Positions 7,382-56,838 of a stretch of 64,000 bases of DNA are shown here, in pieces. The notes under the pieces were generated by a model. The model did not search any database, was not told the DNA's origin, and saw nothing but the letters and a program-made list of their open reading frames with translations. Source of the DNA: Acetivibrio sp. MSJd-27 (GTDB lineage Bacteria; Bacillota; Clostridia; UMGS1840; HGM11507); assembly GCF_018918095.1 (NCBI RefSeq), contig NZ_JAHLPV010000004.1, positions 62,001-126,000 on the forward strand, written 5' to 3'. Position 1 is the stretch's first letter. Every line of letters begins with the position of its first letter. The translations under genes were made by a program, and so were the position numbers.

Positions 7382-7397
7382 TTTTCAGACGAAATAT

Positions 7398-7473
7398 GGG
7401 CCATTAGCTCAGTCGGTAGAGCACTTGACTTTTAATCAAGTTGTCCGGCGTTCGAATCGCCGATGGCTCACCA
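7398..7473 (+). tRNA. tRNA-Lys (TTT)
   Basis: Acceptor GGGCCAT/ATGGCTC, anticodon stem ACTTGA/TCAAGT with loop CTTTTAA, CCA encoded. Last of the five clustered tRNAs. Confidence 0.97.
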
Positions 7474-11507: not shown

Positions 11508-11555
11508 TGCAGAAAAACATTTTGTTAAAAATAAAAATGGGAAAAGAGGGTTTAT

Positions 11556-14468: not shown

Positions 14469-14482
14469 AAGGAGGATGGCTT

Positions 14483-17446: not shown

Positions 17447-17466
17447 CGAAACAATAGGAGGGTATC

Positions 17467-20142: not shown

Positions 20143-20170
20143 CAGGCAAAAAATAAAAGGGAGGATATCT

Positions 20171-21148: not shown

Positions 21149-21162
21149 TGGGAGGTGTTGAA

Positions 21163-23358: not shown

Positions 23359-23373
23359 CAGAGGGTGATGGTA

Positions 23374-26133
23374 TTGAAAAAATGCAACAAGATAATATCT
23401 CTTTTCCTCTGCCTGCTTCTGGATCAGCAGGGATTTGACGCATTGAAGGCACAGACCGGCACAGGCAACTATGGAAAAATCTGGGCAGGCATCGAACAGG
23501 ACGCGGATAGCTATGTGAACCAGACTCCGCCTGACTGGTCGGAGGAGATCAATCAGGGGGAAAACCTCTGGATCTCCGGTTGGGGAGAAAAGCTGTCCAC
23601 TCTTTGCTTTGTCTATAAGCTCACCGGGGATGAGACAAAAAAGGCGGGCTATAAAGCTTCTGCTACCCGGTATGTGAATCGATTGATTTCCTACCCCGTC
23701 TGGGCAAGCCGGGGCGCAACCGCAAACAACGAGATGGCCGGGCAGGGCGCCTTTCTGGGGATTGCTCTGTACTATGACTGGCTTTACCACGATCTGACAC
23801 AGGAGGAACGGGATGCGGCGGTCAACGCCCTCTCAGTCCGGGGAGAAGACATGATAAAGGGCGGCTGGTGGAAAACCTCCTGGCTGCAGAATCACATGAT
23901 GTCCTGCTGGGGCTCTCTTTTCGTGGCTGCAACCGCCATCTATGACGTATATCCGGCCGCAGAGGGTTGGATGACCAAGATCTCCGACAACTTCCAGAAA
24001 ACGCTGGAGCTGTTCCCCGCCGACGGCACTGGCTTTGAAGGGCATATGTACTGGAGTATCACCATGCGGTGGCAAACTATGGTGAGCAGGCTGTCGGATC
24101 AGTTCTTAAACACTCAGATGTTCCAACTTCCGGTTTTCCGGAACGCGGCGAAGTGGGGGTTCTACAACGCCATCCCCCGGGACGCATGGAGATACGACAC
24201 CGACCAGTTTAACGGCGGCGACGCGCCGGTTTACAGCTATTATAGCATGGCAAATTTTATGGCTGCCATTGCAAGCAAGACCGGCGACCCGGTGATCCAG
24301 TGGTATGTCAACCAGTGTATTGACCGGCTTTACAACTGGCGGAACCAGATCAATGCGCCCCTTTCCTGGCAGCTAATGATCCATTATAATCCCGCCATTT
24401 CGGAGCAGGCGCCTTCGGCGGATAATATGCCGCTGGACAAAACCTTCTCCGATACCGGTTTTACCTATCTGCGCAGTGGATGGGATGGCAGCGAGGATGT
24501 TGTCGCCTTCCGCAGCGGAAGGGTGATGGGAAAAAAGGCGGCGGAGTATGTGCTGGCGGATCCTAATCAGTATGATCTGGGGGCGGGGCACCAGCATCCC
24601 GATATCAACAGCCCCGTTATCTTTGCTAATGGGGAATGGCTGTTCAAGGACGACGGCTATGTGACCGGAAGTACCGGGCAGCACAACACTCTGCTGGTGG
24701 GCGGTCAGGGCCAGCTTGGCGATCTGCCCTCCATGCAGGCGAGCTATGGCCTGAATCAGCTTGATATGAACAAGCTTTGGTATCAGGCGAATCCCAGAGT
24801 GGTGAAGATGGAGAGTTATCCCACATTCACCTATGTGGTGTCAGACGGCACTGGGAGTTATCATCCTCAGTCCGGTCTTGAAAAATTCTATCGCCATTTC
24901 GTCTATTTAAAAGAGCAGGATGCTCTGCTGGTGCTGGACGAGGTGGAAGCTCAGGAGGAGACGGATCTGACCTTTCGCTGGCGGCCGGAAGGGTCGGCCA
25001 TCGCGGCTCAGGCGGACGGAAGCTATCTGTGCCGGAGCACAAACAGCAATCTGCGGATTCTCCCCTTCGCCGAGAGCGGGGCGGAGAGCGCAAGCGTCTC
25101 TCTGCCGGTCTATACCGGGAAAAATGTCACAGGCAGCGGCCAGTTTATCCAGGTGAAGAAAACTGCGGATAGTTGGACTCAAGCCACGGCGATCACCTGG
25201 GCGGCGGGCAGCACGACTCCCGCATCTGTGAAGCTGAACAAAACCCAGCAGGGAATCTATGAATTTGTCCTTGGAGACAAGGTGATCGCGGTTGACCCGG
25301 GTAGCCAGACAGTAAAGCCGGCGGATCCGGTGCAGGCGGCGTATCACTTTGACACAAAGACCATCCAGGTCAGCGGCATGGTTTCCGGCAGCACGGAAAC
25401 GCCGGTGACGGCGGCAGTGGTTTCCGACAGCGGGGACACAGTGTGGAGCGGGCAAATTCCAGTTTCTGCAGACGGTTCCTATGAATCGGAGATTCCGCTT
25501 AGCGGCTTTGGGGTTTACAGCGTCAATGTCAGCCACACGTCCTATGGGAGAAGCATTTCCCTTGAGATTACGGCGGAGGAACCGGAACTGCCGGCGTTCA
25601 CTGTCACGGTGTACGCGGCAGAGCAGATCCTCCGCCTGAAAGGCGAACTTGGCATCGCGCCGGAGAATCGGGTGATGACGGTGCGGCTGACTGCGCCGGA
25701 TCAGAAGATCATCTATATGAACGAATTTTCCTGCAGGACGGATGGTAACTATTCCGTCAGCGCGGTGGTTGGCCCGCTGCAGGAGGGGAGTTACCGGGCG
25801 GAGGTTTACAGCGCTGCTTACGATAAGGTGCAAACCCAGTGGATCCCCGTCGCTCTCAATGGGCAGAGCGCAGCCAAAATCACCGCCGCCGCAGACGGCT
25901 ATGAGGCGGTTGTCACCAACTGTACCGCCGAATCCAAAGAATTTGGTCTGATCCTCGCCGTCTACAATCAGACGGGGAATCAGCTTGTGGATATCCAAAC
26001 GGTATACGAGGCGTTCTCCCCGGGAGAATGCAAAACTCTGCGGCTGACATGCGACCCCGGCCTTGAGGCGGATAAAACTGTGAAAGCCTTTGTGTGGGAC
26101 GGCGATATACAGGCGGCCGCGCTGCAGCCATAA
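23374..26133 (+). CDS. Heparinase II/III-type lyase with Ig-like tail and defective export signal
   Basis: About 919 residues. The lyase core has QNHMM near residue 168 and GHQHPDINSP near 402, matching the lyase at 14483. After the core come two Ig-like domains (about 650-740 and 745-835) and a C-terminal module ending KAFVWDGD, shared with the preceding gene. TTG 23374 is chosen because GAGGG lies 8 bases upstream; GTG 23365 and ATG 23368 are too close to it. Oddity: the hydrophobic segment SLFLCLLL runs straight into DQQGFDALKAQ. In the paralogue at 14483 about 30 residues, including the signal peptidase site and the HPRL motif, lie between these parts. An in-frame deletion at the Leu codons would explain this. 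Export may be impaired. Last gene of locus I. Confidence 0.82.
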   Translation: MKKCNKIISLFLCLLLDQQGFDALKAQTGTGNYGKIWAGIEQDADSYVNQTPPDWSEEINQGENLWISGWGEKLSTLCFVYKLTGDETKKAGYKASATRYVNRLISYPVWASRGATANNEMAGQGAFLGIALYYDWLYHDLTQEERDAAVNALSVRGEDMIKGGWWKTSWLQNHMMSCWGSLFVAATAIYDVYPAAEGWMTKISDNFQKTLELFPADGTGFEGHMYWSITMRWQTMVSRLSDQFLNTQMFQLPVFRNAAKWGFYNAIPRDAWRYDTDQFNGGDAPVYSYYSMANFMAAIASKTGDPVIQWYVNQCIDRLYNWRNQINAPLSWQLMIHYNPAISEQAPSADNMPLDKTFSDTGFTYLRSGWDGSEDVVAFRSGRVMGKKAAEYVLADPNQYDLGAGHQHPDINSPVIFANGEWLFKDDGYVTGSTGQHNTLLVGGQGQLGDLPSMQASYGLNQLDMNKLWYQANPRVVKMESYPTFTYVVSDGTGSYHPQSGLEKFYRHFVYLKEQDALLVLDEVEAQEETDLTFRWRPEGSAIAAQADGSYLCRSTNSNLRILPFAESGAESASVSLPVYTGKNVTGSGQFIQVKKTADSWTQATAITWAAGSTTPASVKLNKTQQGIYEFVLGDKVIAVDPGSQTVKPADPVQAAYHFDTKTIQVSGMVSGSTETPVTAAVVSDSGDTVWSGQIPVSADGSYESEIPLSGFGVYSVNVSHTSYGRSISLEITAEEPELPAFTVTVYAAEQILRLKGELGIAPENRVMTVRLTAPDQKIIYMNEFSCRTDGNYSVSAVVGPLQEGSYRAEVYSAAYDKVQTQWIPVALNGQSAAKITAAADGYEAVVTNCTAESKEFGLILAVYNQTGNQLVDIQTVYEAFSPGECKTLRLTCDPGLEADKTVKAFVWDGDIQAAALQP

Positions 26134-40376: not shown

Positions 40377-40409
40377 AAAAATAGAACAGAAAAAGGAGAG
40401 GTGGAAGGT

Positions 40410-41486
40410 ATGCCGGAAAGATGGAGCAAGACATTTGCTGTGGTTTTGACAGCAGTATGTTTTTTAAATTTACCACCATACAATGCGGCAGCTGCGCAGA
40501 AGGAATATCTTATCAATGAAACTTTTGCAGAGGAAGCTGGTCAAAAACCCTCAGGATGGATCCTCAAGGAGAGCGGCGGGGCGATATCCATTGGCTCGGC
40601 AGCCGGTACAACACAGGACAGCAATGCTTTGAATCTATCGGACACCGACAAAAACGGTTCTTCCGGAGTTGCGGCGATGCTTCGGTTTTCTCCTCAAAAG
40701 AGGACAACCGCATTTGAAACCCGATTTAAATTTGATAAACAGATGGGAGATCTGTCCTTTGTCATAGGAGGCGGTTCTGCAGAAGCTATACGGATTACCG
40801 CCGGAATGGACGGTATTTTTACCAGCACTGCGGGAAACGGAACCCGGCAGTATACCAAGTCCACCGCCAAGCTGAACAACTGGAACAGCATCCGCATTGT
40901 CATCAATCCGAACAAAGGGACTGCGGATGTGCGCATCAATCAGGAACTGGTTACCGGACTTTCCACAAAAGAAGATTGTTCTTCAAGCGGCCTTGACTAT
41001 CTGCTGTTTAAGACGGAAAAAGGGACGCCGAATATATTTGTCGATTTTGTTACCGTGGAGACAGGAGACAATCTGAATGCACAGATACAGCCAATCCAGG
41101 CTCCAATTGTGGAGGATCCAAAGCCCAGACCGGTACCGGATAGGATCAATGTCAATTACAATGGCGAGTATATTTATTTTGACTATCCTCCTATTATGAT
41201 AAACGATCGGGTAATGCTTCCCCTTCGGAAAATTTTTGAACTTTTCACCATGCAAGTGGATTGGAACCAGGAAACCAGAACTGCGATTATCAGCAATGAA
41301 AGCTGCAGGATAGAAGTCACGGAAAACAGTGCGACCGCGAAAGTCAACGGCAGCGAAAAAAATTTGGATGCCCCAGCGCCTGTGATAAACGGCAGGATGT
41401 ATGTGCCGGTACGGTTTATTGCGGAGAGTATCGGTGCGCAGGTCGACTGGGATAATGAAAACCAGACTGTCATTATCAGGCGATAG
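40410..41486 (+). CDS. Secreted lectin-like protein with stalk domain (locus II)
   Basis: A 358-residue protein. A signal peptide ends near residue 28 (AAAA-QKEY). Residues about 32-215 form a ConA/LamG-like beta-sandwich (INETFAEEAGQKPSGW opening). After a Pro-rich linker, residues about 245-358 are a copper-amine-oxidase-type stalk domain (NDRVMLPLRK / NGRMYVPVRF). It likely binds polysaccharide near the cell. ATG 40410 is chosen because the SD AAAGGAGAGG lies at about 40392-40401; GTG 40401 would be inside it. First gene of the locus II operon, 13 bases before the lyase gene. Confidence 0.82.
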   Translation: MPERWSKTFAVVLTAVCFLNLPPYNAAAAQKEYLINETFAEEAGQKPSGWILKESGGAISIGSAAGTTQDSNALNLSDTDKNGSSGVAAMLRFSPQKRTTAFETRFKFDKQMGDLSFVIGGGSAEAIRITAGMDGIFTSTAGNGTRQYTKSTAKLNNWNSIRIVINPNKGTADVRINQELVTGLSTKEDCSSSGLDYLLFKTEKGTPNIFVDFVTVETGDNLNAQIQPIQAPIVEDPKPRPVPDRINVNYNGEYIYFDYPPIMINDRVMLPLRKIFELFTMQVDWNQETRTAIISNESCRIEVTENSATAKVNGSEKNLDAPAPVINGRMYVPVRFIAESIGAQVDWDNENQTVIIRR

Positions 41487-41499
41487 GAGGAGAGGAAGA

Positions 41500-44400
41500 A
41501 TGAAGAAAATAATATCTGTTTTTTTGACCGCTGCCTTGATTTTCAGCACGGTCCCGGTGTCCTCCATCGCCGCCGGCGAGCTCAAGTGGGAAGACAGGGA
41601 GAGCACCTTCAAGGCTACCGGGCAGGAGTGGCAGTTCCGTCCGCCGGTTCAGTATGTAAGCGAGCAGAACCCTCCGGATTTTTCCTGGCCCAAAGTCAAC
41701 GGAGCTTCCGGTTATGAGTTGGTTGTCTGCCGGGATGAACAGATGACCGATATCGCCTATGAAAATCGGAATCTGGACAGACATTACTACAATTTTTTGG
41801 TTGCTTTTGAGCCGGGCGTTTATTACTGGAGTGTCCGGTATAAAATGGACGGAAAATTTTCCGAATGGACAAAGTCCAGCCGTTTCATCATTACGCCGGA
41901 TGCTCCGGCGTTCACGGTAGACGATATCGACACAATGCTTGAAAAGCTTCCAAAATCCCATCCTCGCATTGTCCTCAATCAGGATAATCTGCCGGCATTC
42001 CGGGAGATGGTAAAGGGCGACGGCAAGGATATGTATGATGCATACCGCGTGCAGGTGGATAACGATTTAAAAAGTTCTATCCCGGAGGAGCCCACAGATG
42101 TGGCTTCTCTGAGAAGCGTTTGTATGGGATATATGTATCTGATACAGCGTCTCGGTATTGTTTGGCTGGCAGAGCAGGATCTAGAAGTTGGAAAGTTTGG
42201 TGTGGAAGCGCTGATGAAGCTGACGGAATGGGATCCGAACGGGGTTGCTTCCTATGCGAATCAGGATCAGGCCTTCCGTGATATCATCAAAGGGCTGACC
42301 TTTGGATACGACTTTTTATATGATCTGATGACAGCGGACCAGCGGAAAAAGGTGCTGGACGCATTGCAGACAAGGATTATTACGCTGGAGCATCCTACCG
42401 ACGGTCTGGTGGGAGATGCTGCTTACCGACTGGAAGAAAGCCCGTTCATGTCCCATGGATTCACGGCAATCCATTACCTGATTGAAGCGGGCTTTGCAGC
42501 TTACGGCGATCTGCCGGAGGCCGAGGCTTATCTGCGCAAATATCTTCCGATGTACATAAATATTCTTCCCCCTTGGGGAAATGAGGACGGCGGATGGTCG
42601 CAAGGAGTAGGCTATGCGGGGGTTTCCCTGTTTGAGGAATCCAACATTGTTTATACTCTGTATACAAATGGCATGACCAATATGTATAACAAGGCGTTTC
42701 TAAGAAATATGTACCGCTATCCGCTTTATAATCTAGGGCTTTCCACCGGAGCGCTGTGGGGCGACGGCTCCACCGGGAAGACGGACGGTAACTGGAGCAT
42801 TGTTTTAAATATGATTGCCCAGAGCGAGCAGTCAGGATATATGAAATGGCTGATGGAGAAATTCGGAAGTTCTCTGATGCTCTACTTTTCAAATCTTTAT
42901 TTGAATATGTTCCAGGCTCCGGAGAGCAAAGCGCCGGTGGATCTTCCCCGCTCCGCTTACTTTAAGGATATCGGCTGGGTATCTATGCATTCGGACCTGA
43001 CTGATATCAACGGAAGAACCTCTCTGTACTTTAAATCCAGTCCGTATGGATCCCACAACCACTCCCACAATGATCAAAACGGGTTTACGGTGAGTGCTTA
43101 CGGGGAATCCCTGGCGATCAATTCCGGATACTATGATGCCATGTGGTCTGATTATTACAATAATTATTATAAAAAAACCTATGCCCACAACTGTATTACA
43201 ATGGACGGCGGTGTGGGGCAAGCACCCAACGCCAAAGGTGCCAACGGGGACATCGTCAATTATCTGACCCACCCGAATTTTGATTTGGCAAGCGGAGATG
43301 CAACTGCGGCTTACAACTTGAAAACGGATATGACAACAGGAGTTGTATCGGAGGATGTCAAGGCGGACAAAATGAAACGGCATATCATCTATGTCCGGCC
43401 CGATTCTTTTATCGTTATCGACGACTTAAAGCGAAACAATGGGGAGAAATCCTCCTTTGAATGGTGGCTGAACGCGTCGGATAATATCAGCTTGTATGAG
43501 AGCAAAACCGGAGCAAGAATTACAAAGGGCAGGGCGGCTCTTGATGTAAAAGTTCAATATCCGCAGGATATCAAGGCTAGCTATGCAGATATTTTTTCCG
43601 GTCCTGATTTGGTCGCTTTCGCACCCAGCGGCTCCTATTTGAATGAAAAGGTGCATAAAAAGGTATGGTTTTCCACGCAGCCGGCAGAGCAGACGAAGAT
43701 TGTTACCACAATGTCAACCCATAAAACAGATGAGGAAGCTCCTTATGTGAAGTCCGCCATGGAAGGCAATGTAAATAAGCTGGAGTTTGAAGATGGTACG
43801 GTTGCTTATGTGAGAACAGACGAAGCCGGAAAAATAGAGATAGAGGGTATTGAGAGTGACGGTCTTGCCGTGGTCAGGAAAAAGGACAGCTATATGGTTG
43901 TGGACGCAACGGTTTTTCAGGTCGACGGAAAAGAGATTCTGCGTTCGGATAAACCGGTCTCCATTACATGGGGTGACAATGAATTGGGTGTATCCGCCTA
44001 TGAGGACGCACAGATTGAATTGTCTATCGGGCAGGTTGATTCCATAAAGAACGAGAAGACAACGGTGATTGAAAGAAATAACGGGGCTTACGGCTTTTCC
44101 TGGGACAATACCGAAAATGGAATTACAGCAAATGTATATAAAGGCTTTTACTCCTTCTATCTGAATGGAAAACCGCTTCCTGGAACGGAAGCCAATGACG
44201 TCATGCTTTCGTATGAGATGGACGGAGTTTCCAAAGAGATTACCATGAAGGGCTACTACAATCACGACGGAGAAACCGTTTTGAGCGGAAGTCTCGGCAA
44301 TGAGGCGGGTTTCTATACCGTGGAAGAAATACGGGATGTCAATCTGAGAAGCGGCGCCAAAGCAGGCGAGCTTTTAATGCTTTCCAATGATGAAACCGTC

Positions 44401-44916
44401 TATGCGGAGGGAGCCCAACCTTATCTGAAACTGAAATCCGCAGCGGGGGGCGAAAAGCTGGAAGTCGAAAAAATTGACAATCCGGAAGAATTCCGGAAAA
44501 AGTGCTCTGTGATTGTGGAAGCGGAAAACTTTTATGAAAAATCGGGCGGCGGTGTTCCCTATACTACCAGGAGCTTTCTTTCCGGCGGTGCGGGGCTTAC
44601 CGAGTTTAATACCTTCGGTGATTCCATGAGCTGGAAAATAAAAGTTCCAAAGACCGGAGATTATGATTTGGTTATGAAGTATGTTGGATGGGATGGCGCA
44701 GACGGAGCAATCCAGAGGCTGTTCCAGATAAACGGTGTTGTGGGCACGGCGTATCTGCCGGCGACAAACAACTATGGGCAGAGTGAATCAGAGTGGATCG
44801 CAAGCCGGGTGAAAGCAAAAATTCACCTAGAAGAGGGCGAGAACATCCTTACGCTTTATCCGCAGATGGGCAGCTGGAACTTTGATTGGATTGGGCTGGT
44901 TCCCTCCAATGAGTAA
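41500..44916 (+). CDS. Secreted heparinase II/III-type lyase with DUF4962 start and CBM6/35-like tail
   Basis: A 1138-residue protein. A signal peptide ends near residue 25. A DUF4962/fibronectin-like domain (about 27-130; NPPDFSWPKVNG, YYWSVRYKMDG) precedes the alpha/alpha toroid, which begins HPRIVLNQDNLP near 155 and contains ESPFMSHG near 318. The beta-sandwich part has GSHNHSHNDQNGF near 515 with the metal/catalytic His-Asp cluster, and YVRPDSFIVIDD near 630. Residues about 1010-1138 form a carbohydrate-binding module of CBM6/35 type (VEAENFYEKSGGG). It should cleave an acidic polysaccharide by beta-elimination; substrate unknown. ATG 41500 follows GGAGGAGAGGAAG. Confidence 0.87.
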   Translation: MKKIISVFLTAALIFSTVPVSSIAAGELKWEDRESTFKATGQEWQFRPPVQYVSEQNPPDFSWPKVNGASGYELVVCRDEQMTDIAYENRNLDRHYYNFLVAFEPGVYYWSVRYKMDGKFSEWTKSSRFIITPDAPAFTVDDIDTMLEKLPKSHPRIVLNQDNLPAFREMVKGDGKDMYDAYRVQVDNDLKSSIPEEPTDVASLRSVCMGYMYLIQRLGIVWLAEQDLEVGKFGVEALMKLTEWDPNGVASYANQDQAFRDIIKGLTFGYDFLYDLMTADQRKKVLDALQTRIITLEHPTDGLVGDAAYRLEESPFMSHGFTAIHYLIEAGFAAYGDLPEAEAYLRKYLPMYINILPPWGNEDGGWSQGVGYAGVSLFEESNIVYTLYTNGMTNMYNKAFLRNMYRYPLYNLGLSTGALWGDGSTGKTDGNWSIVLNMIAQSEQSGYMKWLMEKFGSSLMLYFSNLYLNMFQAPESKAPVDLPRSAYFKDIGWVSMHSDLTDINGRTSLYFKSSPYGSHNHSHNDQNGFTVSAYGESLAINSGYYDAMWSDYYNNYYKKTYAHNCITMDGGVGQAPNAKGANGDIVNYLTHPNFDLASGDATAAYNLKTDMTTGVVSEDVKADKMKRHIIYVRPDSFIVIDDLKRNNGEKSSFEWWLNASDNISLYESKTGARITKGRAALDVKVQYPQDIKASYADIFSGPDLVAFAPSGSYLNEKVHKKVWFSTQPAEQTKIVTTMSTHKTDEEAPYVKSAMEGNVNKLEFEDGTVAYVRTDEAGKIEIEGIESDGLAVVRKKDSYMVVDATVFQVDGKEILRSDKPVSITWGDNELGVSAYEDAQIELSIGQVDSIKNEKTTVIERNNGAYGFSWDNTENGITANVYKGFYSFYLNGKPLPGTEANDVMLSYEMDGVSKEITMKGYYNHDGETVLSGSLGNEAGFYTVEEIRDVNLRSGAKAGELLMLSNDETVYAEGAQPYLKLKSAAGGEKLEVEKIDNPEEFRKKCSVIVEAENFYEKSGGGVPYTTRSFLSGGAGLTEFNTFGDSMSWKIKVPKTGDYDLVMKYVGWDGADGAIQRLFQINGVVGTAYLPATNNYGQSESEWIASRVKAKIHLEEGENILTLYPQMGSWNFDWIGLVPSNE

Positions 44917-44934
44917 GGAGGATGATTCGAAGAA

Positions 44935-47900
44935 ATGAAACGTTATTGTTCTTTCCTTCTTGTACTTGTCCTGTTGTTGGGGATACTTCCTGTTTATGCG
45001 GCGGAAGAGGATCTTTCCAATCGGATTACAGTCGGAAGAGTTCGCTTCTATCAGAATGATCAGGAAATCCGTACATTGCACACAGGCGACGCGGTCACGG
45101 TGAAATGCGAGCTTTGGAATAAAACGCCGTACAGCGGCGGTCAGGACGCTTACCTGTTTTTGCAAATCACCAGAAACGGCAAAGTGATTGACCTTAAAAA
45201 AACAAACACAACCCTTTATACAAACAGTGGTACCCACAGATTAAGCGTGACCTCCGATCCCATCGGAGACATCGCCGGCTGTGAGGTGGAGGCGTACGTT
45301 ACAGCGGATCCTGTCACCATGCTTCCTCTGGCTTCCCCCGCGAAGCTGGGGAGTACGGATGCCAGACTGCATACCATCTGGTTAAATGGCCAAGAGTTTT
45401 CCCTTACGGACGGTGTCTATGAATACGAGTTTGAAACGGCAGACAAAACGTTGCCTTTAAAGTTGGTCATAGAGCCGTACGATCAGGGAACAGGACTTTC
45501 CGTTTCGCAGGATAAAGGTATCATGAGAGTGACAGCAACTTCTAACAGCGGTACTGGAAGCGTGCAGTATCTCTTCCAGACCAATCTCCTGAAATGGGAA
45601 GACAGAAGCAGTGTTTATCGAACGATTGGTACGGAATGGCCGTTCCGGCCGGAGAAAGACTATCAAAGCCGGCAGAATCCTCCGGACTTTTCCTGGCCGT
45701 ATATCCCGGAGGCGGTAGCCTATGACTTGAAGATCTGCAGGGATTTACAGCTACAGCAGATCGCTTATCAGGCAACAGGTTTGAACACAAATTACTATAA
45801 CTTCCCAGCCCCTTTTGAATCGGGAACTTATTATTGGAGTGTTCGATACCACACCGAAAATGGTGTGTCCGCATGGACTGAGGCGTCCCGATTTCTGATC
45901 CTGCCGGATGCGGCAGAATATAGGGTGGATTCCATTGATACGATGCTTTCCAAAATTCCCGCGTCCCACCCGCGCATTGCGGTAGGGCAGACAAATTTGG
46001 AACAATTCCGCAAACTGCCCGGGGGGCAGAACTATGCCGATGAAATGACGGCCAATGTTCGCGCTTATATGAAAGAGCCCATGCCGACGGAACCAACAAC
46101 AACCGAGGATTTGCGGACGCAGATCGCGCCTATGACCAACCGGGTGAACAGCAGCGCGATCTCCTATCTGCTGAAGCAGGATCCCGATATTGGCGCATAC
46201 GGTGTTTCAGTGCTGCTGTCACTGGCTGCTTGGGATCCGCAGGGAACGACTTCTTACGTCAATCAGGATCAGGCTTTCCGCGATATTATGATTGCAATGG
46301 TACAAGGGTATGACTATTTATATGATCTTTTGACACCGGAACAGAGACAAACAGTGCTTTCTGCTATCCGAACACGTGCGATCACCTTGGAGCACCCCAC
46401 GGCAGGTCTATCGGATGCGGCATACAAGCTGAAGGAAAGCCCGTATATGTCTCATGGGGGAACTGGACGGGATTATATTCTGCTTACCTCTATCGCTCTG
46501 TATGGAGAATTGCCGGAGGCTGAACAATGGCTGCGGGAATACCTCCCAATGTATCTGAATATGGTTCCCGTCTGGGGCAATCAGGATGGAGGATGGGCGC
46601 AGGGTACTGGATATGCCGCTGCATCCTATACAATGGGCGAGGATTTAAGGTTTACCCTGTACACCCATGGCATAGCAAATGTTTACAACAAGGCGTTCTA
46701 TAAAAATATTGATAAATTCGGAATCTATTTCGCAGGGAAATACGGCGGGGCGGAATTCGGCGATGGTTCGACCGGAGCTTTCTCGCCGGATTGGGCGCTT
46801 ATCTTTAAAACGCAGGCTTACCTGCTGCAATCTCCTTATTCGGCATGGCTGCGAACAAATTGCGGATACGGAGCGGCAGGAACCTACGCCAACTATTATA
46901 TGCTGTCCTTTCCGTGGCCTGCGGAAAAATCACCGGAGGAGCTCCCGAAAGCGGAAGTGTTTCCGGATATCGGCTGGACAGCAATGCACTCCAGTCTGAC
47001 GGATTATGACAATCGGATATCCGCCTACTTCAAATCCAGTCCCTTTGGATCCTACAATCATTCCCATCCGGATCAGAACTCTTTTGTGATTCAGGCCTAT
47101 GGGGAAAGACTGGCCATTGACAGCGGATATTATGATTATTATTTTTCTCCCTTCGATCTGGGCTATACCAGAAAGACATATGCCCACAACGGGGTGACGA
47201 TGGACGGCGGGATTGGGCAGGCACCGACCGTTATGGTGTCAAAGGGAGACATCACTGGATTTGTCCATCATCCTTCCTTTGATTTGGCATCGGGGGATGC
47301 GGCGGAGGCCTACAACTATGCTCTCAATTACAATACGGGTATTCCCACCGCAGTCAACCGGCTGGAACGGGCAAAACGGCATTTCATTTATCTGAGACCG
47401 GATACCTTCCTTGTCATTGACGATTTAAAGAGAAGCGGGCAGGAGACCTCCTCCTTCGAGTGGTGGCTGAATGCGCTTGCGATTGACAGCTATACGAATC
47501 AGTCCGCATTCATTCAGCAGGGGAGGGCGGCCATGGATACCGTTATCCAGTACCCCTTAAATATGGCGGTGCATTACAGTGACAAATTTTCCGGACCTGA
47601 CGGAGCGGCATATACGCCTTCCGGAGAATATGCGTATCAGCCAGTGCACCAGCGGGTATGGTTTTCCATGCCGCCGGCAAACAGCACGAAAATCGTTGCA
47701 ACCATGTCGGTGCATCCTTCCGGTACGGAAGCGGAAGCGCCGTCATCCATACAAATTGGAAACGCATTGAAAATAAGCTTTGCAGACGGAACAACAGCTT
47801 ATGTGAAGACTGACAGCGCGGAACGTATGACAGTGGAAAATATCACGACAGATGCAACCGCAGTCATTGTAAAAGACGGAAGCTATCTGATGGCGGACGG

Positions 47901-48165
47901 AACCTTCCTCACAGTGGACGGGAATACGATCTTCCATGCGGATAAACAGATTTCTGCAGCGTACGGCGGCGGACAGCTGAGCATTTCCTGCAGCCAGGAC
48001 GTGGCTGTGACCGTGGATACAGCACATGGAATTACAGCGGTGACAACACAGGAAGGGAAGGAAATCCCCCGTCTGGACAACAGCTATGGGATCCAGTGGG
48101 ATATCGGTGCAGCAGGCTTCACAGCGAAACTATTTAAGGGTTTTTATACATTATCTATTCAATAA
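44935..48165 (+). CDS. Second locus II heparinase II/III-type lyase with duplicated N-terminal module
   Basis: A 1076-residue protein paralogous to the previous gene from its DUF4962 domain on (LKWEDRSSVYRTIGTEWPFRP vs LKWEDRESTFKATGQEWQFRP, in part). It has ESPYMSHGG near 502 and GSYNHSHPDQNSF near 703. It lacks the C-terminal CBM. Instead, after its signal peptide (to about 22), it carries about 195 residues made of an Ig-like and a cadherin-like beta-sandwich domain. This same N-terminal module begins the next gene (48185), where KLIDLKK matches KVIDLKK here. Complete and well spaced (18 bases after its neighbour). Substrate unknown; two related lyases suggest endo/exo or two-linkage division of labour. 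Confidence 0.85.
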   Translation: MKRYCSFLLVLVLLLGILPVYAAEEDLSNRITVGRVRFYQNDQEIRTLHTGDAVTVKCELWNKTPYSGGQDAYLFLQITRNGKVIDLKKTNTTLYTNSGTHRLSVTSDPIGDIAGCEVEAYVTADPVTMLPLASPAKLGSTDARLHTIWLNGQEFSLTDGVYEYEFETADKTLPLKLVIEPYDQGTGLSVSQDKGIMRVTATSNSGTGSVQYLFQTNLLKWEDRSSVYRTIGTEWPFRPEKDYQSRQNPPDFSWPYIPEAVAYDLKICRDLQLQQIAYQATGLNTNYYNFPAPFESGTYYWSVRYHTENGVSAWTEASRFLILPDAAEYRVDSIDTMLSKIPASHPRIAVGQTNLEQFRKLPGGQNYADEMTANVRAYMKEPMPTEPTTTEDLRTQIAPMTNRVNSSAISYLLKQDPDIGAYGVSVLLSLAAWDPQGTTSYVNQDQAFRDIMIAMVQGYDYLYDLLTPEQRQTVLSAIRTRAITLEHPTAGLSDAAYKLKESPYMSHGGTGRDYILLTSIALYGELPEAEQWLREYLPMYLNMVPVWGNQDGGWAQGTGYAAASYTMGEDLRFTLYTHGIANVYNKAFYKNIDKFGIYFAGKYGGAEFGDGSTGAFSPDWALIFKTQAYLLQSPYSAWLRTNCGYGAAGTYANYYMLSFPWPAEKSPEELPKAEVFPDIGWTAMHSSLTDYDNRISAYFKSSPFGSYNHSHPDQNSFVIQAYGERLAIDSGYYDYYFSPFDLGYTRKTYAHNGVTMDGGIGQAPTVMVSKGDITGFVHHPSFDLASGDAAEAYNYALNYNTGIPTAVNRLERAKRHFIYLRPDTFLVIDDLKRSGQETSSFEWWLNALAIDSYTNQSAFIQQGRAAMDTVIQYPLNMAVHYSDKFSGPDGAAYTPSGEYAYQPVHQRVWFSMPPANSTKIVATMSVHPSGTEAEAPSSIQIGNALKISFADGTTAYVKTDSAERMTVENITTDATAVIVKDGSYLMADGTFLTVDGNTIFHADKQISAAYGGGQLSISCSQDVAVTVDTAHGITAVTTQEGKEIPRLDNSYGIQWDIGAAGFTAKLFKGFYTLSIQ

Positions 48166-48184
48166 ATAGAAAGTGAGTGATACC

Positions 48185-51100
48185 ATGAAAAAAAGGTTCT
48201 TAGGGTTATTTTTAGTGTTCGCGATGCTCTTTGCATGCGTGCCCGGGATGGCAGCCCGGGCGGCCGGCACAGATCTCTCTGCCAATGTCAAGGTGACCGA
48301 TTTCCGTTTCCTGGTGGACGGCACCGAAACCACAGTTTTGACACCGGGAAAAACAGTGACAGCTGAGTGCAAACTGGAACGTACCGCAGTCGGTACAGGT
48401 GCACAGAACTACTGCTTTATTCTGCAGGTGATTGACAATGGAAAGCTGATTGACCTGAAAAAGATCACCGGCTCCATTTCTGCTGCAGACGGCAAAAAAC
48501 AATTTCCGTTGCCAGCGCGGCGCTGGGACAGGACACAGCAAAGTATGAAGTTGTAGCTTTGCTGGTTTCCGACATGACAACCATGGCACCTTTGGCGATG
48601 CCCGCAAACTTTAAAAACAGCACCTGCGATATCGCTTCTATTACGGTTGCAGGAAACAAGGTTCCTTTGGAAGCTGGGAAAACCGACTATTCTATGGATC
48701 TGAATATCATGGAAAGTGAAATGTCTCCTGCAATCGAGGTTATCCCCTATGATCTATCCACTGATATCACGGTGAACAATATTTCCGGCGACAGCGGAAC
48801 AGCGACGGTAACGGCTGTGTCTCACGACGGGAAAGCAACCGTACAGTATAACATCGCATTGAATATCACAACGCTGAAACCGGCCTCCCTCAAAAGCGTC
48901 ACGGTGGACGGAACACCGTTGGAAGGCTTTGATCCGAACACCTTGGAATATCGCATCAACGGAAAAACAACCGTTCCTGTCATCGCCTTTGAAAAAGCGC
49001 TGGAAACAACGCAGACAACCGTGATCGCGGCAACGGAACTGCCCGGAACCACCGTTGTCAAAACCAAGGCGGCGGATGGAAGCGAGCTCACTTACAAATT
49101 CCAGTTTACGAAGACGGTTGAGGTTCCGGTAAGCAGCGTTGCAAGATCCCTTGATTTCAATGGATATAAGGTCTTGCAGCTCGCCTCCGAACCGGCGGCT
49201 TTTCCTAATTTTCAACAGGTTAACGCAAATCGGCCGAACGGCCCCGAAAATCAGGATTATACCTATGGTACCACAGGGCAAATGATGCTGATCAAGAAAA
49301 CTTATGGCTATTTCGGATTTAAAACCAATTTGCCTGCTGGTGTAAAAATTGAAAAAGGGGAAGTAACCTTTACCTTACTGGCGGAGGACAGAGCGGATAA
49401 TTCGCTGTCCGGCGCTCAAAAATACGGCAATCTTCATCTGGACGTTTATGAAAATACCGACATCGCCTGGACAGAACAGCCCACCGGGGAATATCGGGAT
49501 GGAATCATCAAACCCGCCTATACCAGCTCGGTCATCAACAATGAGGTTGATATACCAGCGCAAATGGCAAAACAAACCTATGAGCAAACGATCACCTATC
49601 AGGTGGATCCGGCAGGATTGCAGGGGAAATCTGTCATCGGACTTGCAGCGGAAATCAGAGAGCCATCCACCTCTTACAATTCGTTTATCACGATACCGCT
49701 GAACAATACAGAGAAACTTCCCAAGCTGAAGCTGACTTACTATAAAGACTATGTGGAACCGGAAAAACTGGCCTTCGTCACCTTTGACGGCAAGGCCTAC
49801 GGCTCTTTCGATCCCGACACACTGGAATACAAAATCCCTTCCGCGGACGGACAGACCGCGTCTCCGGTTATCGCAGCAACAGCAGGCGCTTCTTCCACAA
49901 AGGTAACTGTAAAACAGGCCTCCGGTTTCCCAGGAAAAGCGACGGTGACAACCGAGGCTGCGGACGGAAAAATCCTGACTTATACGTTTCTCTTTATGAA
50001 GACGGTTGAGGTGACGCCAGTCGCCGCGGCCGCGTCCTTTACAACCGGTCAGCGAGAGCATCTGGGCGTCGCGCAGGGCACAGACGTCGGTACCTATCTG
50101 TATGATAAAAAGCTGGCGGACGGATCCGCCGGACGGATTAACCAGCCCGGAAGGATTTTTCTTGCTAACGGCAGCTTTGACGACAAGGCACATTTGCTGT
50201 TCCGTCCGGAAATTCCATTGGATGCAGTGGTGGACAGTGCGGAACTGGATTTAAGCGTATCCGCGCTGGGTTCCATCCGTCATATTGACGTTTACGAGAA
50301 TACAGATACCTCGTGGAAAGGCAATGCAACCGGTACAACCGAAGAGGCAGGTCCGAGCTTTGATTCCTCCAAGGTTCTGAACAGTGATATCGAGATCAAA
50401 GCGGATCAAAATTATTATCGTTATACCTATCAGTTGGATCCTTCTCTCGGCTTTGAGGGGCGCAATGAGATATCCTTCACTGCGTTCACGAGGGAAAGAG
50501 GAAGCTGGAGTAATTATGCGGTTCTTGAGTTAAGAGAAGGATTACAGCCGACTTTAAGGATCAACTACTACAAGGAAGACAGCACCGCCGAAGAAGGTCA
50601 GGTCACTGCGGTTACCGTCGGAGGGAAAAGACTGGAGGAGTTCAATCCGGCGCAGTATGAATATGTTATAAAAACGGATGCGGGCGCCACGGAAGCGCCG
50701 GAGATCCAATATGCTCTGGCGGACAATACCACCGCAACCTACACTCCGGCGACGGAGCTGCCCGGCACGGCCACGATCGTGACATCGGGCGGTCTGACTT
50801 ACCGGTTTAAGTTAGCCAAGACCATTGCGGTTGCCCCTACCAAGATCGCACAGAAGCGTTTTGACGAGCAAGAGGCAGGAATGCCATTTCAAACGGGGAA
50901 CAACGGTGACTTTGAAAGCTATACAGGAATGAATTATGGATTTGTTCCTGGTACAATGCTAAATCTTAGCCGGGGTTCTGCATATGATGGACAAACTTCA
51001 TACAGCTTCTTCTATTATGATACCGCTTTAGCCTCGGACTGTGTTGTCTCGGAGGCTTCATTAACGGCATACTTAAGAGCGGTTAACGGTAAAGACACCG

Positions 51101-51420
51101 CGACACCTTTGCATATAGATATTCTTGAAAACACAGATACTGGCTGGGTGAGCAATCCTACGGCTTATGCGGTTGCAGGTTCATTCCCGGCAGTGTCAGC
51201 GGACAGAATCAATGTAAGCGACAATGATTTACCGCATGCGACTGAGCTTAGCGCAAAGACCTATCAGCTGAAACCGGAGAAGATTTCTGGCAGAGCTTCC
51301 TTTGGTATTGCGGTTCGGACAAGAGAATATTGCAGTTCTATTAGTGATCAAAAGTATACAATGATCGGTGTAAAATCAGCACAGCTTCCGGTTTTGGAAC
51401 TAACCTACTATAAAGACTAG
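48185..51420 (+). pseudogene. CBM96/DNRLRE-type secreted protein with a -1 frame break at an A6 run
   Basis: The first frame (ATG 48185, signal peptide to about residue 26, Ig-like domain) fits until GGC AAA AAA CAA at 48491-48502. It then runs into a TAG at 48554-48556. The homologous sequence continues in the -1 frame from the same point (TISVASAALGQ...), which stays open to TAG 51418-51420. Alignment with 44935 crosses the break cleanly (IDLKK... then SVASA vs SVTSD), so a single A appears missing from A6 at 48494-48499. The remaining product has the cadherin-like domain and three repeats of an Ig-like unit (LEGFDPNTLEY-type start, KTVEV-type end), each followed by a DNRLRE/CBM96-like beta domain (HLDVYENTD, HIDVYENTD, HIDILENTD). 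If shifting or slippage occurs, about 1078 residues result. Confidence 0.8.
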
Positions 51421-51438
51421 AGGAAAGGAGTGATAACA

Positions 51439-52392
51439 ATGAAAAGAACGATATCATTCTTCTTGATAACTGTGCTTCTTTTGTCTTTCACATCCTTTGG
51501 AACGGTTTTTGCGGCAGAGCCTACCCTTCAGGCAGTCATGAACTGGGATGACTTGGATACCGGAAGACTGACGGTAATCGGAAGTTTCCCGACCGAGTAT
51601 GCGGGCAGGAAAATTATCCTATTTGTGACAGATCCGGCAGTGGATTTAAACGATTCCACAATTGCGGACAGCGAAAAGTATTTTGGAATCCGTCAGGGAT
51701 TCATCAACGAGGACGGCTCTTACCGCTTTGATAATCCGTTTTATGCGCGTCCCGGCATCTATCAGGTCAATGTGATTGCGGACACTATGGTCACGCCGAT
51801 TACAACGCCTTTGACCGTCACGGGAACCTATTATGATTTCGCGGTGACTGCAAATCCAGGCGGAACGGTTACACCCAGCGGAACAACACAGATACTGAGA
51901 AATGATTCCGTCAGTGTAAAAATTATCTGTAATGAAGGATATCATATAAAGTCCATCACAAAGAACGGCTCCGCACTTCCGGTGCTGAATGAGTTTGACA
52001 TTGACGCGGTCACCGAAAACATCGCGTTGGATGTCGTGTTTGAGAAAATTCCGGATGTCAAACCAAGCTTTACGCAATCTTATGAAACCTATGTGCCGGC
52101 AGAGAAAGAGGGAAGTGTTACCTTCGGCAGTATTTCACTCGGCTCTGGCTGGACAATAAAGGACTATGGGATTGTATATTCCGAGACAAACCCTAGCCCG
52201 ATGCTGGACGGTGCGGGCTGCGTAAAGCTGCCGCACAAAACGCCTATGAATCGTAAGGGGCAATACGGCATTCAGCTGCAGGGCAACTATTTGATTGGAA
52301 AATTATATTACACCAGAACTTATGTAACCTATGAAAAGGACGGGGTAACCGATACAACATATGGTGAAACGGTTGTAACCAATTTGCAGTAA
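51439..52392 (+). CDS. InlB-repeat secreted protein (locus II, intact copy)
   Basis: A 317-residue protein with a signal peptide to about residue 24 (VFAA). An Ig-like domain (about 28-128; GSFPTEYAGRKI, EKYFGIRQGF) is shared with the N-terminus of the next gene (GAFPVDFAGRKV, EKYLGIRETV). An InlB-like/Flg_new_2 repeat follows (about 133-205, VTANPGGTVTPSG), then a C-terminal domain of about 100 residues (GQYGIQLQGNYLIGKLYYTRTY) of unknown fold. It is the full-length counterpart of the amber-interrupted gene at 20171. ATG 51439 follows AGGAAAGGAG; GTG 51430 lies within that SD. Role unknown, perhaps adhesion or scaffolding. Confidence 0.83.
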   Translation: MKRTISFFLITVLLLSFTSFGTVFAAEPTLQAVMNWDDLDTGRLTVIGSFPTEYAGRKIILFVTDPAVDLNDSTIADSEKYFGIRQGFINEDGSYRFDNPFYARPGIYQVNVIADTMVTPITTPLTVTGTYYDFAVTANPGGTVTPSGTTQILRNDSVSVKIICNEGYHIKSITKNGSALPVLNEFDIDAVTENIALDVVFEKIPDVKPSFTQSYETYVPAEKEGSVTFGSISLGSGWTIKDYGIVYSETNPSPMLDGAGCVKLPHKTPMNRKGQYGIQLQGNYLIGKLYYTRTYVTYEKDGVTDTTYGETVVTNLQ

Positions 52393-52419
52393 AGAGAACC
52401 AAGAAAAAAGGGAGGCAGG

Positions 52420-54168
52420 ATGATGTACGGACTGAGACATTTCTATCAGACGGCGGGCCGCAGAATTGCGGCCGCTGCCGTTGCGGCGGCAGTACTGTTG
52501 TCAAGTGCGGTTTTCACCGTGGCTGCCGCGGATCCCGATCCGGCGGCGAAGGTAAAAATCGTCAGGGAAACCGATACGGTATCTGGGGACATCACACAGA
52601 AAATACAGGTGACCGGAGCATTTCCGGTTGATTTTGCAGGAAGAAAGGTGACTTTGACGATCTCGGATCCGAAGGCAGCGGAAGGGGAAGACTTAGAGAA
52701 ATATCTGGGAATCCGGGAAACTGTTATTGAAAAGGACGGCAGTTTTACATTTCTTTGCCTCTTTCATGCGCCTGCCGGCGATTACCGGGCATCTATTATG
52801 GCTGATACGATGGAGAAACCGGTCTCTTATGATTTTTTTGTATCCTCCATCGATGACATTATGGCGCTCTTTGAACAGCTGGAGGCAGGGTCGCTAGATA
52901 AAAATACATTGCTTGACAAACTGGATACACAGCACAGAGAGCTGGGGTTAGATGGTACCATATATAAAAGTCTGAATCAGCTTGGGAGGCTCTCGGTGTG
53001 TGAGGCAATCATCAAAGATTTTAAGCAGTTTACAGTGGACGCGTTTGTGACCTTTTTTGACACAGCCGTGATTGTAAATGGGCTTGACACAGCGCAGACA
53101 GAGGATACGGTGAAAAATATCCTCGCCTATTATGATAAAGAGTATATTAAATTGAGCGGGGAGCCGCTTTACAGTGATTATAATGCGCTGGATAATAAAA
53201 ATAATGTATACAGCGGAATGCTGAATGAAACATACGGGACACTCCCGGATGTGAGAACGGCATTTAATAAAAATGTAGTGTTTGGATCTTTTAAGTCTAT
53301 CCATTCCAGTTCGCAGATAGGTGGATTGATTGAAAAGTACAAAGACTATCTTGCATTTGATCCATCCAATTCTGTTTATCTCAAATATAAACAGAAAATC
53401 GAAAATTATCTGGGAAAAATGATGTCCCAATTCCGTTCTCTGGACCAAATTATTGAGAAACTAAACGATATCATTGCGAATCCCACGAAATATTTCCCAG
53501 ATCCGACTAACGTCGGCGGAGGGGGCGGAGGCGGAGGCGGAGGTTCCTCTTCCAAACCTTCCGGAACAGTGGAATTAAATCCGGATATCGGCCAGACGGA
53601 AATACCGGATGACCTGATAACCTCCAGTGGATTTCAGGATGTTCCGGATGATTATTGGGGCAAAGAGGCGATTGCTTATCTTTCCGGCAAAGGAATTGTA
53701 TCCGGCAGGGACAAAGAGCGGTTTTGCCCGGAAGAGACCATTACCCGGGCCGAGTTTACAAAAATTATGATGGGGGCGCTTAAATTTAGCCTTGAAGGGG
53801 TCTCCTGTTCATTTGAAGATGTAAAAGAAGAAGACTGGCATTACCGTTATGTCGCTGCGGGTGCAGAGAACGGAATCATCAAAGGAACCGATGAAAATAA
53901 GTTTTATCCGGATGATTCCATCACAAGGCAGGACGCGGCGCTGCTGCTTAAGAGGGCGCTGGAACAGAAAGGAATCCAGATTGATAAAGAGAAAACAGCA
54001 ACGTTTACCGACGAGGGAGAAATTTCCGATTATGCAAGGGAAGCTGTTGGCCTGCTCGCTGGAAACCATTTGATCAAGGGATTTGACGACAATACATTCA
54101 GGCCTTTTGCAAGTCTGACAAGAGCAGAGGCGGCACAGCTGATTTATAATGCGGTGACGGCAGAATAA
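52420..54168 (+). CDS. Surface protein with helical spacer, poly-Gly linker and three C-terminal SLH repeats
   Basis: A 582-residue protein. An unusually long basic n-region and Ala-rich hydrophobic segment end near residue 36 (VAAA). The N-terminal Ig-like domain (about 45-145) matches that of the preceding gene. A helical domain (about 150-360) ends in a ten-glycine linker, and three SLH repeats follow (about 405-582; TRAEFTK, TRQDAAL, TRAEAAQ). The helical spacer resembles that of the SLH protein at 11556 (YNALDNKNNVYSGML vs YNTLKNPEKISMAL). SLH repeats should fix it to cell-wall polymer. The start may be ATG 52420 or, better spaced from GGAGG (52411-52415), ATG 52423. Confidence 0.85.
   Translation: MMYGLRHFYQTAGRRIAAAAVAAAVLLSSAVFTVAAADPDPAAKVKIVRETDTVSGDITQKIQVTGAFPVDFAGRKVTLTISDPKAAEGEDLEKYLGIRETVIEKDGSFTFLCLFHAPAGDYRASIMADTMEKPVSYDFFVSSIDDIMALFEQLEAGSLDKNTLLDKLDTQHRELGLDGTIYKSLNQLGRLSVCEAIIKDFKQFTVDAFVTFFDTAVIVNGLDTAQTEDTVKNILAYYDKEYIKLSGEPLYSDYNALDNKNNVYSGMLNETYGTLPDVRTAFNKNVVFGSFKSIHSSSQIGGLIEKYKDYLAFDPSNSVYLKYKQKIENYLGKMMSQFRSLDQIIEKLNDIIANPTKYFPDPTNVGGGGGGGGGGSSSKPSGTVELNPDIGQTEIPDDLITSSGFQDVPDDYWGKEAIAYLSGKGIVSGRDKERFCPEETITRAEFTKIMMGALKFSLEGVSCSFEDVKEEDWHYRYVAAGAENGIIKGTDENKFYPDDSITRQDAALLLKRALEQKGIQIDKEKTATFTDEGEISDYAREAVGLLAGNHLIKGFDDNTFRPFASLTRAEAAQLIYNAVTAE
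53515..53544 (+). repeat. GGCGGA-type tandem repeat encoding ten glycines
   Basis: Ten consecutive GGN codons, mostly alternating GGC and GGA, encode the flexible linker before the SLH repeats. Such a tract could change length by slippage. Confidence 0.85.
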
Positions 54169-54207
54169 ACAGTGTGTCTGTATATTTCAAGGAAGGTGTG
54201 ATACGGA

Positions 54208-56838
54208 ATGAAAAAAAGAATAATTTGCCTGTTTCTGACTCTTGTAATCGGCATTGCGGCTTTCTATGGAGCGGCTTTCGCGGCAGAGGGAACCTCCTCT
54301 GTTATAACGCCGGAGACAGAGCTTGCGGAGCTTGTCAATATAGGCGTAATCACGCAGACGCGGGCAGACTGGGATTCGACGATTACCAGAGCGCAGATGG
54401 CAAAAATACTGGTAAATATTCTGAAGATAGAGCCAGAGAATGGGCAATTCGGACAGAGGTTTTCCGATGTAACGCCGCAGACGGATGCGTATCATCCGAT
54501 CATGGCTATGGTAAATCTGGGCTATATGTCCGGATATGAGAACGGGACCTTCCAGCCGGAAAAATCCATTACCGGAATAGAAGCCGGAAAGATCCTGGTA
54601 CATATTTTGGGATATAAATACAAAGCGGTGACAGGCGGGGGATATCCAGCCGGATATCTTGCGTGTGCCAACGATATCGGTCTTTCCAAGGGGGTTGTTC
54701 TTTCCTACACGGAACCGTTGAAATGGGGAGAACTGGTTAAACTGCTCAGCAATGCTCTGGACATCCCTCTGGTCGATCTCATTGCCGTCGGGGAGAACGA
54801 AAAATATCAGATAAATCCGGATGTGACATTGCTTACAAAATATATGAAAATGCAGAGAGCCAAAGGTGTGGTAACCGCGAATGATTTGGCTGGTATTCAG
54901 GGAAATGACGCGGCGCCGGAGGGAAAGATCTCGATTGACGGGATCTTCTACACGCCCCGTTCTCTGAAGGACAGAAATTTGCTTGGTCTGCAGGTATCCT
55001 ATATTTACAAACTGGATGACGACTTGGAAGCACATCAGATCGTCAGTATTGTGGAGCGAAACACAAAAAAAATGACTGTGGAAAGCAGCCAGTATAGCCG
55101 CTTGGTCGGAAATACCGTGTACTTTTACAGGGATGACGCTTCCTCCGAGCAGAGAGTGACCTTTGATGTGACAGCAGATATTATATACAACGGCGAGAGA
55201 GCGGTCTATTCCCAGGAGCTCTTTGATAAGGTGAAGACAGGGATCTATGAGTTCATCAGTACAACCAACAGTTCCTATGATCTGGTTATCATCCGGGATT
55301 ACCGTGTGATGACGGTAGGTCAGATTGACAGGAACAACAAAATTCTGACCGATGAGAGGGATACTGGCATTAAAATCTCTCTGGATGACAGTGAGAAAAC
55401 GGTATTGGTATACGATGCAAACGGAAAGGAAGTCAACTTTTCTTTTATCAGTACCTATGATGTTCTAACTTATATGGACAACGAGAATTACATTGAGGTT
55501 TATGTTGGCAGCAGTACGGTTTCCGGCGAGGTAATCTCCGTTTCGGCTGACGGAACGGACAGCTATGTGACGATCGGTGAGACGGTTTATCAGGTAAATC
55601 CATATATTGTGGAGCAGTACAACCAGCTGAAGGCAGGGGATCTGGTCAAGGCCAGTATCGATCATATGGGTTACATCGCCAATATCACCATCCTGAATAA
55701 GGACGGCCTTGAATACATGTATCTTATTCAGATAGACGGCAGCGACAGTGAGATTGATTTACAGCTCAGAGCAAAATTTTACAGTGTGGGGAGAGGAATT
55801 TCCATCCATGACTTAAAGGATCCGCTGCGGATCAACGGCACTTCCCATAAGAACCTCACTGTGGATAAACTGAGAGGGCTTTTAGGAACTCCGCTTGATC
55901 AGTTGGTCAGCGTTAAATTTGACGAGAACAACCGGATTGTTCAGATGGATACGGCACAGGATTTAAAGGTTCTGGAGGACAATTTCACGGACGGCTTCTG
56001 CCGGACACATAAATTGATGGAGAGAAACCTGTTTAAAGATCCCTGGACGTTCAGCCGCTCGATTTATCTAACCAATGCCACCCAGCTTTTGATGATTCCT
56101 CAAGATTTGGCGAGCGCTACCGACAAAGACTTTAAGACTGGAACTCTGGATTATTTGACGCAGGGTTCCGATTACTTAACGGAAGCATATAACCGTACAA
56201 AGAACTATGAGATTCCCGAGGTTATTATCGTACGCACGGCAGCAGGATCCGGAAGCGCACCTCAATTTAAGCTGGAGACACCTGCAGTGGTCGTAAAATC
56301 AATGGTGCAAACCGTTAATGAAGACGGTGATATTGTCAAGCGTGTGAAAGTTCAGGAGGGCACCAAGGAAACCTTTTTCGATATTGACGCGGCCGCTCCG
56401 GCCAGCTGCGTTGTGAAGGAGGGCACCCCGGAGGAAAGAACCATCTCGGTAAACGATCTGGGTATCGGAGATATCATTCGTTACAGCAAGGATAGCTCCG
56501 GCTATATCCGTTTACTTGAGGTTTATCGGGATGACAGTGCCGACGAGTGGACCGGAACCATTACGGCGGGAGACAAAAACGGCATTTTTCCTACCAATGT
56601 TTCCAGAAGAAGCGGAGATTATGTGTTTGTACCACATTGGTTTGTTGACGGGGAGGATTACGGCGTTGTCTATTTGCGGGAACAGACCTTGAGTATCGGA
56701 GGTATTAGTGTTGTAGAACAGCGCGAGGGCAGGGAACCATATATCCGCGCAGGGAGCACGACCGATGTGGAAAAAGGGGACAGGATTGTGCTGCATATTG
56801 CTTATGGACAGCTGATCGGCATCATCGTATACAAATAA
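54208..56838 (+). CDS. Large N-terminal SLH-domain surface protein (locus II)
   Basis: An 876-residue protein with a signal peptide to about residue 25 (AFAAEG). Three SLH-like repeats lie at about 30-70, 88-142 (GYMSGYENGTFQPEKSITGIEAG is clearest) and 150-190. About 680 residues of beta-rich sequence without a recognised enzyme motif follow. It matches the protein at 17467 in order, length and SLH placement, defining a family present once per locus. It lies 39 bases after the C-terminal-SLH gene. Probable wall-attached scaffold; function unknown. Confidence 0.8.
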   Translation: MKKRIICLFLTLVIGIAAFYGAAFAAEGTSSVITPETELAELVNIGVITQTRADWDSTITRAQMAKILVNILKIEPENGQFGQRFSDVTPQTDAYHPIMAMVNLGYMSGYENGTFQPEKSITGIEAGKILVHILGYKYKAVTGGGYPAGYLACANDIGLSKGVVLSYTEPLKWGELVKLLSNALDIPLVDLIAVGENEKYQINPDVTLLTKYMKMQRAKGVVTANDLAGIQGNDAAPEGKISIDGIFYTPRSLKDRNLLGLQVSYIYKLDDDLEAHQIVSIVERNTKKMTVESSQYSRLVGNTVYFYRDDASSEQRVTFDVTADIIYNGERAVYSQELFDKVKTGIYEFISTTNSSYDLVIIRDYRVMTVGQIDRNNKILTDERDTGIKISLDDSEKTVLVYDANGKEVNFSFISTYDVLTYMDNENYIEVYVGSSTVSGEVISVSADGTDSYVTIGETVYQVNPYIVEQYNQLKAGDLVKASIDHMGYIANITILNKDGLEYMYLIQIDGSDSEIDLQLRAKFYSVGRGISIHDLKDPLRINGTSHKNLTVDKLRGLLGTPLDQLVSVKFDENNRIVQMDTAQDLKVLEDNFTDGFCRTHKLMERNLFKDPWTFSRSIYLTNATQLLMIPQDLASATDKDFKTGTLDYLTQGSDYLTEAYNRTKNYEIPEVIIVRTAAGSGSAPQFKLETPAVVVKSMVQTVNEDGDIVKRVKVQEGTKETFFDIDAAAPASCVVKEGTPEERTISVNDLGIGDIIRYSKDSSGYIRLLEVYRDDSADEWTGTITAGDKNGIFPTNVSRRSGDYVFVPHWFVDGEDYGVVYLREQTLSIGGISVVEQREGREPYIRAGSTTDVEKGDRIVLHIAYGQLIGIIVYK

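Follow-up and report, generated by a model that had tools for sequence, protein, structure and literature searches.

A gene for a putative glycan-binding surface protein is split by a one-base frame change at an A6 run in the assembly of Acetivibrio sp. MSJd-27

The window analyzed here is a 64,000-nt stretch of the Acetivibrio sp. MSJd-27 genome (NCBI RefSeq assembly GCF_018918095.1, contig NZ_JAHLPV010000004.1, positions 62,001 to 126,000 of the forward strand), and coordinates are those of the window unless another contig or genome is named. The gene that begins at 48185 lies between two lyase-like genes and a series of surface protein genes that includes SLH proteins at 52420 and 54208 (Table 1). 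Joined across its two frames, it encodes a signal peptide, a tandem beta-sandwich N-terminal domain, and three repeats of a Cadherin-like linker followed by a CBM96-like domain; the cluster encodes a secreted multi-domain protein that putatively binds glycans. Upstream, the open reading frame from the ATG at 41401 overlaps the 3ʹ end of the gene at 40401–41486 (overlap 41401–41486), and its real start is probably further downstream.

Elsewhere in the window, the region 9966–26133 holds a second cluster that parallels 40401–56838 and includes SLH proteins, heparinase II/III-like lyases, a Flg_new_2 protein and a solute-binding protein; a 736-aa protein encoded at 21148 in this cluster has no Pfam match. 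A tRNA cluster lies at 6963–7470 (G000:C4:68963-69470, where G000 is this genome) and partly fills the gap at 6226–7441. The whole 3 Mb genome has at least 150 SLH-domain and 14 heparinase II/III-like C-terminal matches and, judging by its sequence, appears to encode a very large S-layer-anchored, glycan-degrading surface repertoire.

Table 1. Features of the split gene and its neighbors (window coordinates)
Feature	Coordinates	Strand	Remarks
Second heparinase II/III-like lyase	41401..44916	+	Weak CBM_35 match; true start probably downstream of 41401
Paralogue: same N-terminal domain, DUF4962, heparinase II/III-like lyase	44935..48165	+	Intact
Truncated ORF	48185..48556	+	Signal peptide and ~77 residues of the N-terminal domain, then out of frame to TAG
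Sec-type signal peptide MKKRFLGLFLVFAMLFACVPGMAARAA	48185..48265	+	From the translation, judged by eye, without a predictor
N-terminal tandem beta-sandwich domain, interrupted by the frame change	48266..48864	+	Profile A3; model of the paralogue's domain, pLDDT 81
A6 run; coding frame shifts -1 here	48494..48499	+	Sequence, homology switch, codon-usage switch 48490-48513
Downstream -1 frame, same gene	48502..51420	+	972 codons; no signal peptide of its own
CBM96-like beta-sandwich domain 1	49114..49749	+	AlphaFold model against 7VBO, Z 11.8; against 8WAB, Z 11.4
Cadherin-like beta-sandwich linker	49795..49953	+	PF12733, E 0.0024, under the curated cut-off; the better of two weak matches; also supported by matches to the G003 protein
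CBM96-like domain 2	50002..50577	+	32% identity to domain 1
CBM96-like domain 3	50821..51417	+	32% identity to domain 1
Secreted Ig-like protein	51430..52392	+	Related to the N-terminus of 52420
SLH-anchored surface protein	52420..54168	+	Homologue fused to the domains of the 48185 gene in a relative

A direct check of the sequence places AAAAAA at exactly 48494–48499. The zero frame, which opens at the ATG at 48185, preceded by AGAAAGTGAGTGATACC, reads GGC AAA AAA CAA across the run and ends at a TAG at 48554–48556. Beyond the run, the -1 frame continues without a stop through 972 codons (48502–51417), while the two alternative frames contain 42 and 52 stops downstream of 48502. Three measures switch frame at this point. 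The 44935 paralogue matches the part of the 48185 gene before the run at 33.7% identity over 101 residues (E 3e-13) and the part after it at 33.6% over 122 residues (E 4e-10), and the two matches meet at residues about 99–103. Trained on the window's remaining genes, with the 48185 gene left out, a codon-usage model puts the optimal switch at 48493–48501, with 48490–48513 falling within 2 nats. A profile of the N-terminal domain (A3), built from other genes only and excluding the 48185 gene, aligns at model positions 4–79 in one frame up to 48502 and at positions 80–196 in the other frame from 48496. Because homology, codon usage and domain profile each switch frame at the run, the region 48185–51420 is confirmed as a single gene split at the A6 run, far beyond chance. 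The crossing at 48494–48499 in the preliminary description of this locus is thus borne out by all three; its figure of over 1000 intact codons is correct for the neighboring 44935 gene (1076 aa), whereas the 48185 gene has 972 codons downstream of the run and ~105 upstream. For annotation, the two open reading frames are one gene, and a call of a leaderless 953-aa protein would be wrong.

Three further genes in this genome (C4:107004, C7:85752 and C10:76495) carry the same N-terminal domain whole and in a single frame, as do genomes from the same family and from other families of the class; among the copies found that span the position, no other is broken there, whether in this genome, the family or the class. 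Our comparison genomes came from the same family and class, the genus being represented by this genome alone. We found no relative by a pattern search of genome contigs, no match for a run-length-tolerant DNA pattern in genome or viral contigs, and no relative in a plasmid search. Mapped onto the model of the paralogue's domain, the frame change coincides with the fifth strand of the first sandwich (model residues 80–85). Judging by that model, the 123-residue product of the zero frame would be missing the final two strands of this sandwich and could not complete it. The standard product should be non-functional, because these strands are lost and the signal peptide is cut off from the three CBM96-like domains. 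Internal restart as a source of functional protein is rejected: its product would have no signal peptide, and the restart codons have no Shine-Dalgarno-like stretch. A second copy or duplication as the cause of the split is likewise rejected, as no second copy was found. A fold search with the N-terminal domain returned just generic beta-sandwich matches with low TM-scores, and hence we claim no function for it.

The preliminary description called the gene CBM96-type, a label that stands at the level of predicted fold but not as a sequence family. Searches of Pfam and NCBIfam, at E up to 5 and 0.1, return neither a CBM nor a DNRLRE family for the CBM96-like domains, and the PDB has no sequence match to them at E up to 1. 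The top VIA-align match of the domain 1 model, which has a pLDDT of only 67, is 7VBO (rmsd 3.5 over 159 aligned residues), the CBM96 alginate-binding module TM6-N4 (PMC9971899); 8WAB, a chondroitin sulfate-binding CBM, aligns over 155 residues, and identity to these structures is 8–14%. BcsB and TGF-beta-family prodomains score nearly as high as 7VBO (Z about 10–11), and the founding paper of CBM96 lists TGF-beta-type prodomains among the structural neighbors of that family (PMC9971899). The model thus supports a CBM96-like fold for domain 1, but not membership of CBM96 or a ligand. The likeness to 7VBO and 8WAB extends to context, since the 48185 gene adjoins genes resembling uronan or glycosaminoglycan lyases. 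Linkers comparable to the one in Table 1 precede the other CBM96-like domains.

A genome of the same family (G003) encodes the same domains whole and in one frame. Its 1824-aa protein (G003:C6, L037 4305-9779) combines the N-terminal domain and the Cadherin-like and beta-domains with an SLH anchor that is 30.6% identical to the 52420 product over 533 residues (E 2e-68). A homologue of 54208 comes next after this gene, and one of 40401 is nearby (50% over 126 residues). Unlike in the window, where 52420 is a separate gene, the SLH anchor is fused to the rest, so the two arrangements are linked by gene fission or fusion. The fusion suggests that the products of 48185 and 52420 act together at the cell surface.

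How unusual is such a break in this genome? We sampled 705 kb of the 3.05 Mb, which are a 104-contig draft estimated as 98.8% complete; the sample includes the window and consists of 484 kb plus 221 kb selected for their surface-gene clusters. In the 484 kb, a seven-state codon scan flagged many same-strand frame changes, which we judged by where the scan placed stops and starts, with ORF coordinates consulted for the ten most doubtful. All but the A6 case fit gene boundaries or short overlaps, leaving the break at 48494 as the only clear intragenic one among about 1,160 runs of at least 6 bases. Within 270 long ORFs of the same 484 kb there are 325 A6 runs and about 148 longer A runs (~470 A6–A9 in all) that leave the frame unbroken; A6 is the commonest class among A runs of at least 6, and 28 A6 runs stand in the identical phase before C in intact long ORFs. 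The further 221 kb contain no broken homopolymers in other surface gene clusters, and one more gene that is likely broken (L064, on G000:C26, 363–5286, with the break near 2880–2910). It encodes a large secreted protein with a calcineurin-like phosphoesterase (metallophosphoesterase) domain, a purple acid phosphatase N-domain and a dockerin; its Metallophos match ends at profile position 106 of 191, with a recognizable continuation in another frame, and the break is away from any long homopolymer. Its presence in the same genome makes such breaks part of the background. Long genes are thus broken about once per 350 kb in this sample and the breaks do not have homopolymers in common, which argues against both systematic error at homopolymers and a family of switches based on them.

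Together, these observations are most economically explained by an ordinary, recent one-base slip that left a loss-of-function allele, a reading to which we give a probability of about 0.6. Homologues of the gene are intact, the copy at 48185 is interrupted, and the remainder is undegraded (972 open codons with normal codon usage), as expected of a recent pseudogene; the undegraded remainder is the reason to place the event recently. An intact downstream frame would also be expected of a gene that is rescued or that switches on and off. We propose that a replication slip put the A run at codons 104–105 one base out of register. Ribosomes would then halt at 48554 and release a 123-residue product without any putative glycan-binding domain, and a restart within the remainder would have neither a signal peptide nor a good ribosome-binding site. 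The change could revert, as A6/A7 runs are known to do at a low rate. An A6 cell would be without the putative binding protein at its surface, and ~2.9 kb of untranslated mRNA inside a putative operon could lower expression of 51430–56838, if this lineage has Rho-type polarity. Of the four causes offered in the preliminary description, recent mutation fits best; transcriptional slippage and evolved phase variation fit poorly.

The main alternative explanation is that the missing base reflects a consensus or assembly error, or a collapsed mixture of strains, with most cells of the organism carrying an intact gene. We consider this unlikely, but it is the most serious competitor. A slip in the consensus or assembly would look the same as a real one, the genome is a draft, the break sits on a homopolymer, the remainder of the gene looks fully constrained, and there is no second copy to account for the split. 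A systematic form of the assembly error raised in the preliminary description is, however, at odds with a single clear intragenic break among all the runs scanned, and with the many A6–A9 runs that leave long ORFs intact. Six A residues are also a short run for short-read chemistry, which counts against an error if the platform was a short-read one.

A second alternative is phase variation, in which replication slippage at the run would reversibly switch a surface glycan-binding protein on and off. In favor of this, the gene encodes a surface protein and its remainder is intact, and there are precedents for slippage both in a Gram-positive surface gene with natural A6 and A7 alleles, inlA (PMC2831843), and in a gut commensal that switches its pili at an intragenic G-tract (PMC9187656). 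Nonetheless, we regard this explanation as doubtful. Contingency loci are recognized by a tract longer than the genomic norm, and this one is not expanded: A6 is commonplace in long ORFs, other intact genes carry runs of A7–A9, and the 48185 gene itself has an A7 run at codons 2–4 (48188–48194), near the position of the unstable tract in inlA, that is in frame. The other surface gene clusters scanned also show no broken homopolymers. Phase variation as an evolved contingency locus is therefore unsupported, whereas the slippage that the preliminary description invoked could occur reversibly at a low rate. A narrower possibility, which we consider improbable, is that A6 and A7 form a low-frequency bistable switch for a glycan-binding surface protein whose gene adjoins those of its lyases and SLH anchors, such that cells with and without the binder are both kept and expression of the downstream SLH genes is perhaps altered by polarity.

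Recoding, whether programmed or incidental, would allow some full-length protein to be made, either through an A added by transcriptional slippage or through ribosomes slipping by -1 on AAA AAA. An A_AAA tetramer is in phase, a -1 slip would yield a product that matches the homologues, and the downstream frame is intact, but we consider recoding very improbable. The run is shorter than the 8–9 A or T residues associated with slippage by bacterial RNA polymerase: the E. coli enzyme shows zero slippage on fewer than 8 A (PMC6260861), which disfavors the transcriptional slippage of the preliminary description, and A/T runs typically show signs of counterselection at a length of 9 (PMC1088944). 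Programmed ribosomal frameshifting, which was absent from the earlier list of causes, is also disfavored, because the zero frame does not read the heptamer A_AAA_AAC (48494–48500) in phase and the sequence downstream shows no unusual structure. This heptamer is weak in E. coli (PMC5009743). Predicted folding of the 61–135 nt downstream, computed without pseudoknots, is near the mean of shuffled sequences (z -0.6 to -1.5). Hence, the site has neither the in-frame X_XXY_YYZ heptamer nor the stimulatory structure of programmed -1 frameshifting, and its frame organization is not conserved in relatives, all other copies in the family being unsplit at the position. Moreover, the same in-phase A6 before C is carried by intact ORFs. 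The A6 site bears no special signal in any test that we ran.

Frameshifts at short homopolymers in surface genes are an ordinary kind of event, and two known systems bear on the one described here. The pili of Bifidobacterium breve, which are sortase-dependent, resemble it in that a homopolymer slips in a surface-structure gene of a commensal (PMC9187656); they differ in that the tract consists of G residues and its length plasticity was seen by deep sequencing, whereas here the tract is a short A6 for which one length is known. The closer parallel is inlA of Listeria monocytogenes, a Gram-positive surface gene that is one base off in an A6/A7 run near its 5ʹ end and otherwise intact. Natural alleles of inlA carry A7 (in frame) or A6 (truncated), and the measured rate of A6 reverting to A7 is about 5.5e-7, roughly 1,000-fold above that of point mutation (PMC2831843). 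The two cases differ in that the inlA tract occupies codons 3–5, with both alleles known from nature and a measured reversion rate, whereas the present, longer gene has its run at codons 104–105 and one allele has been seen. The inlA case is nearly exact, and low-frequency reversibility would therefore be expected here without an evolved switch. If reads showed both lengths, the 48185 gene would be an additional example of reversible inactivation of the inlA type.
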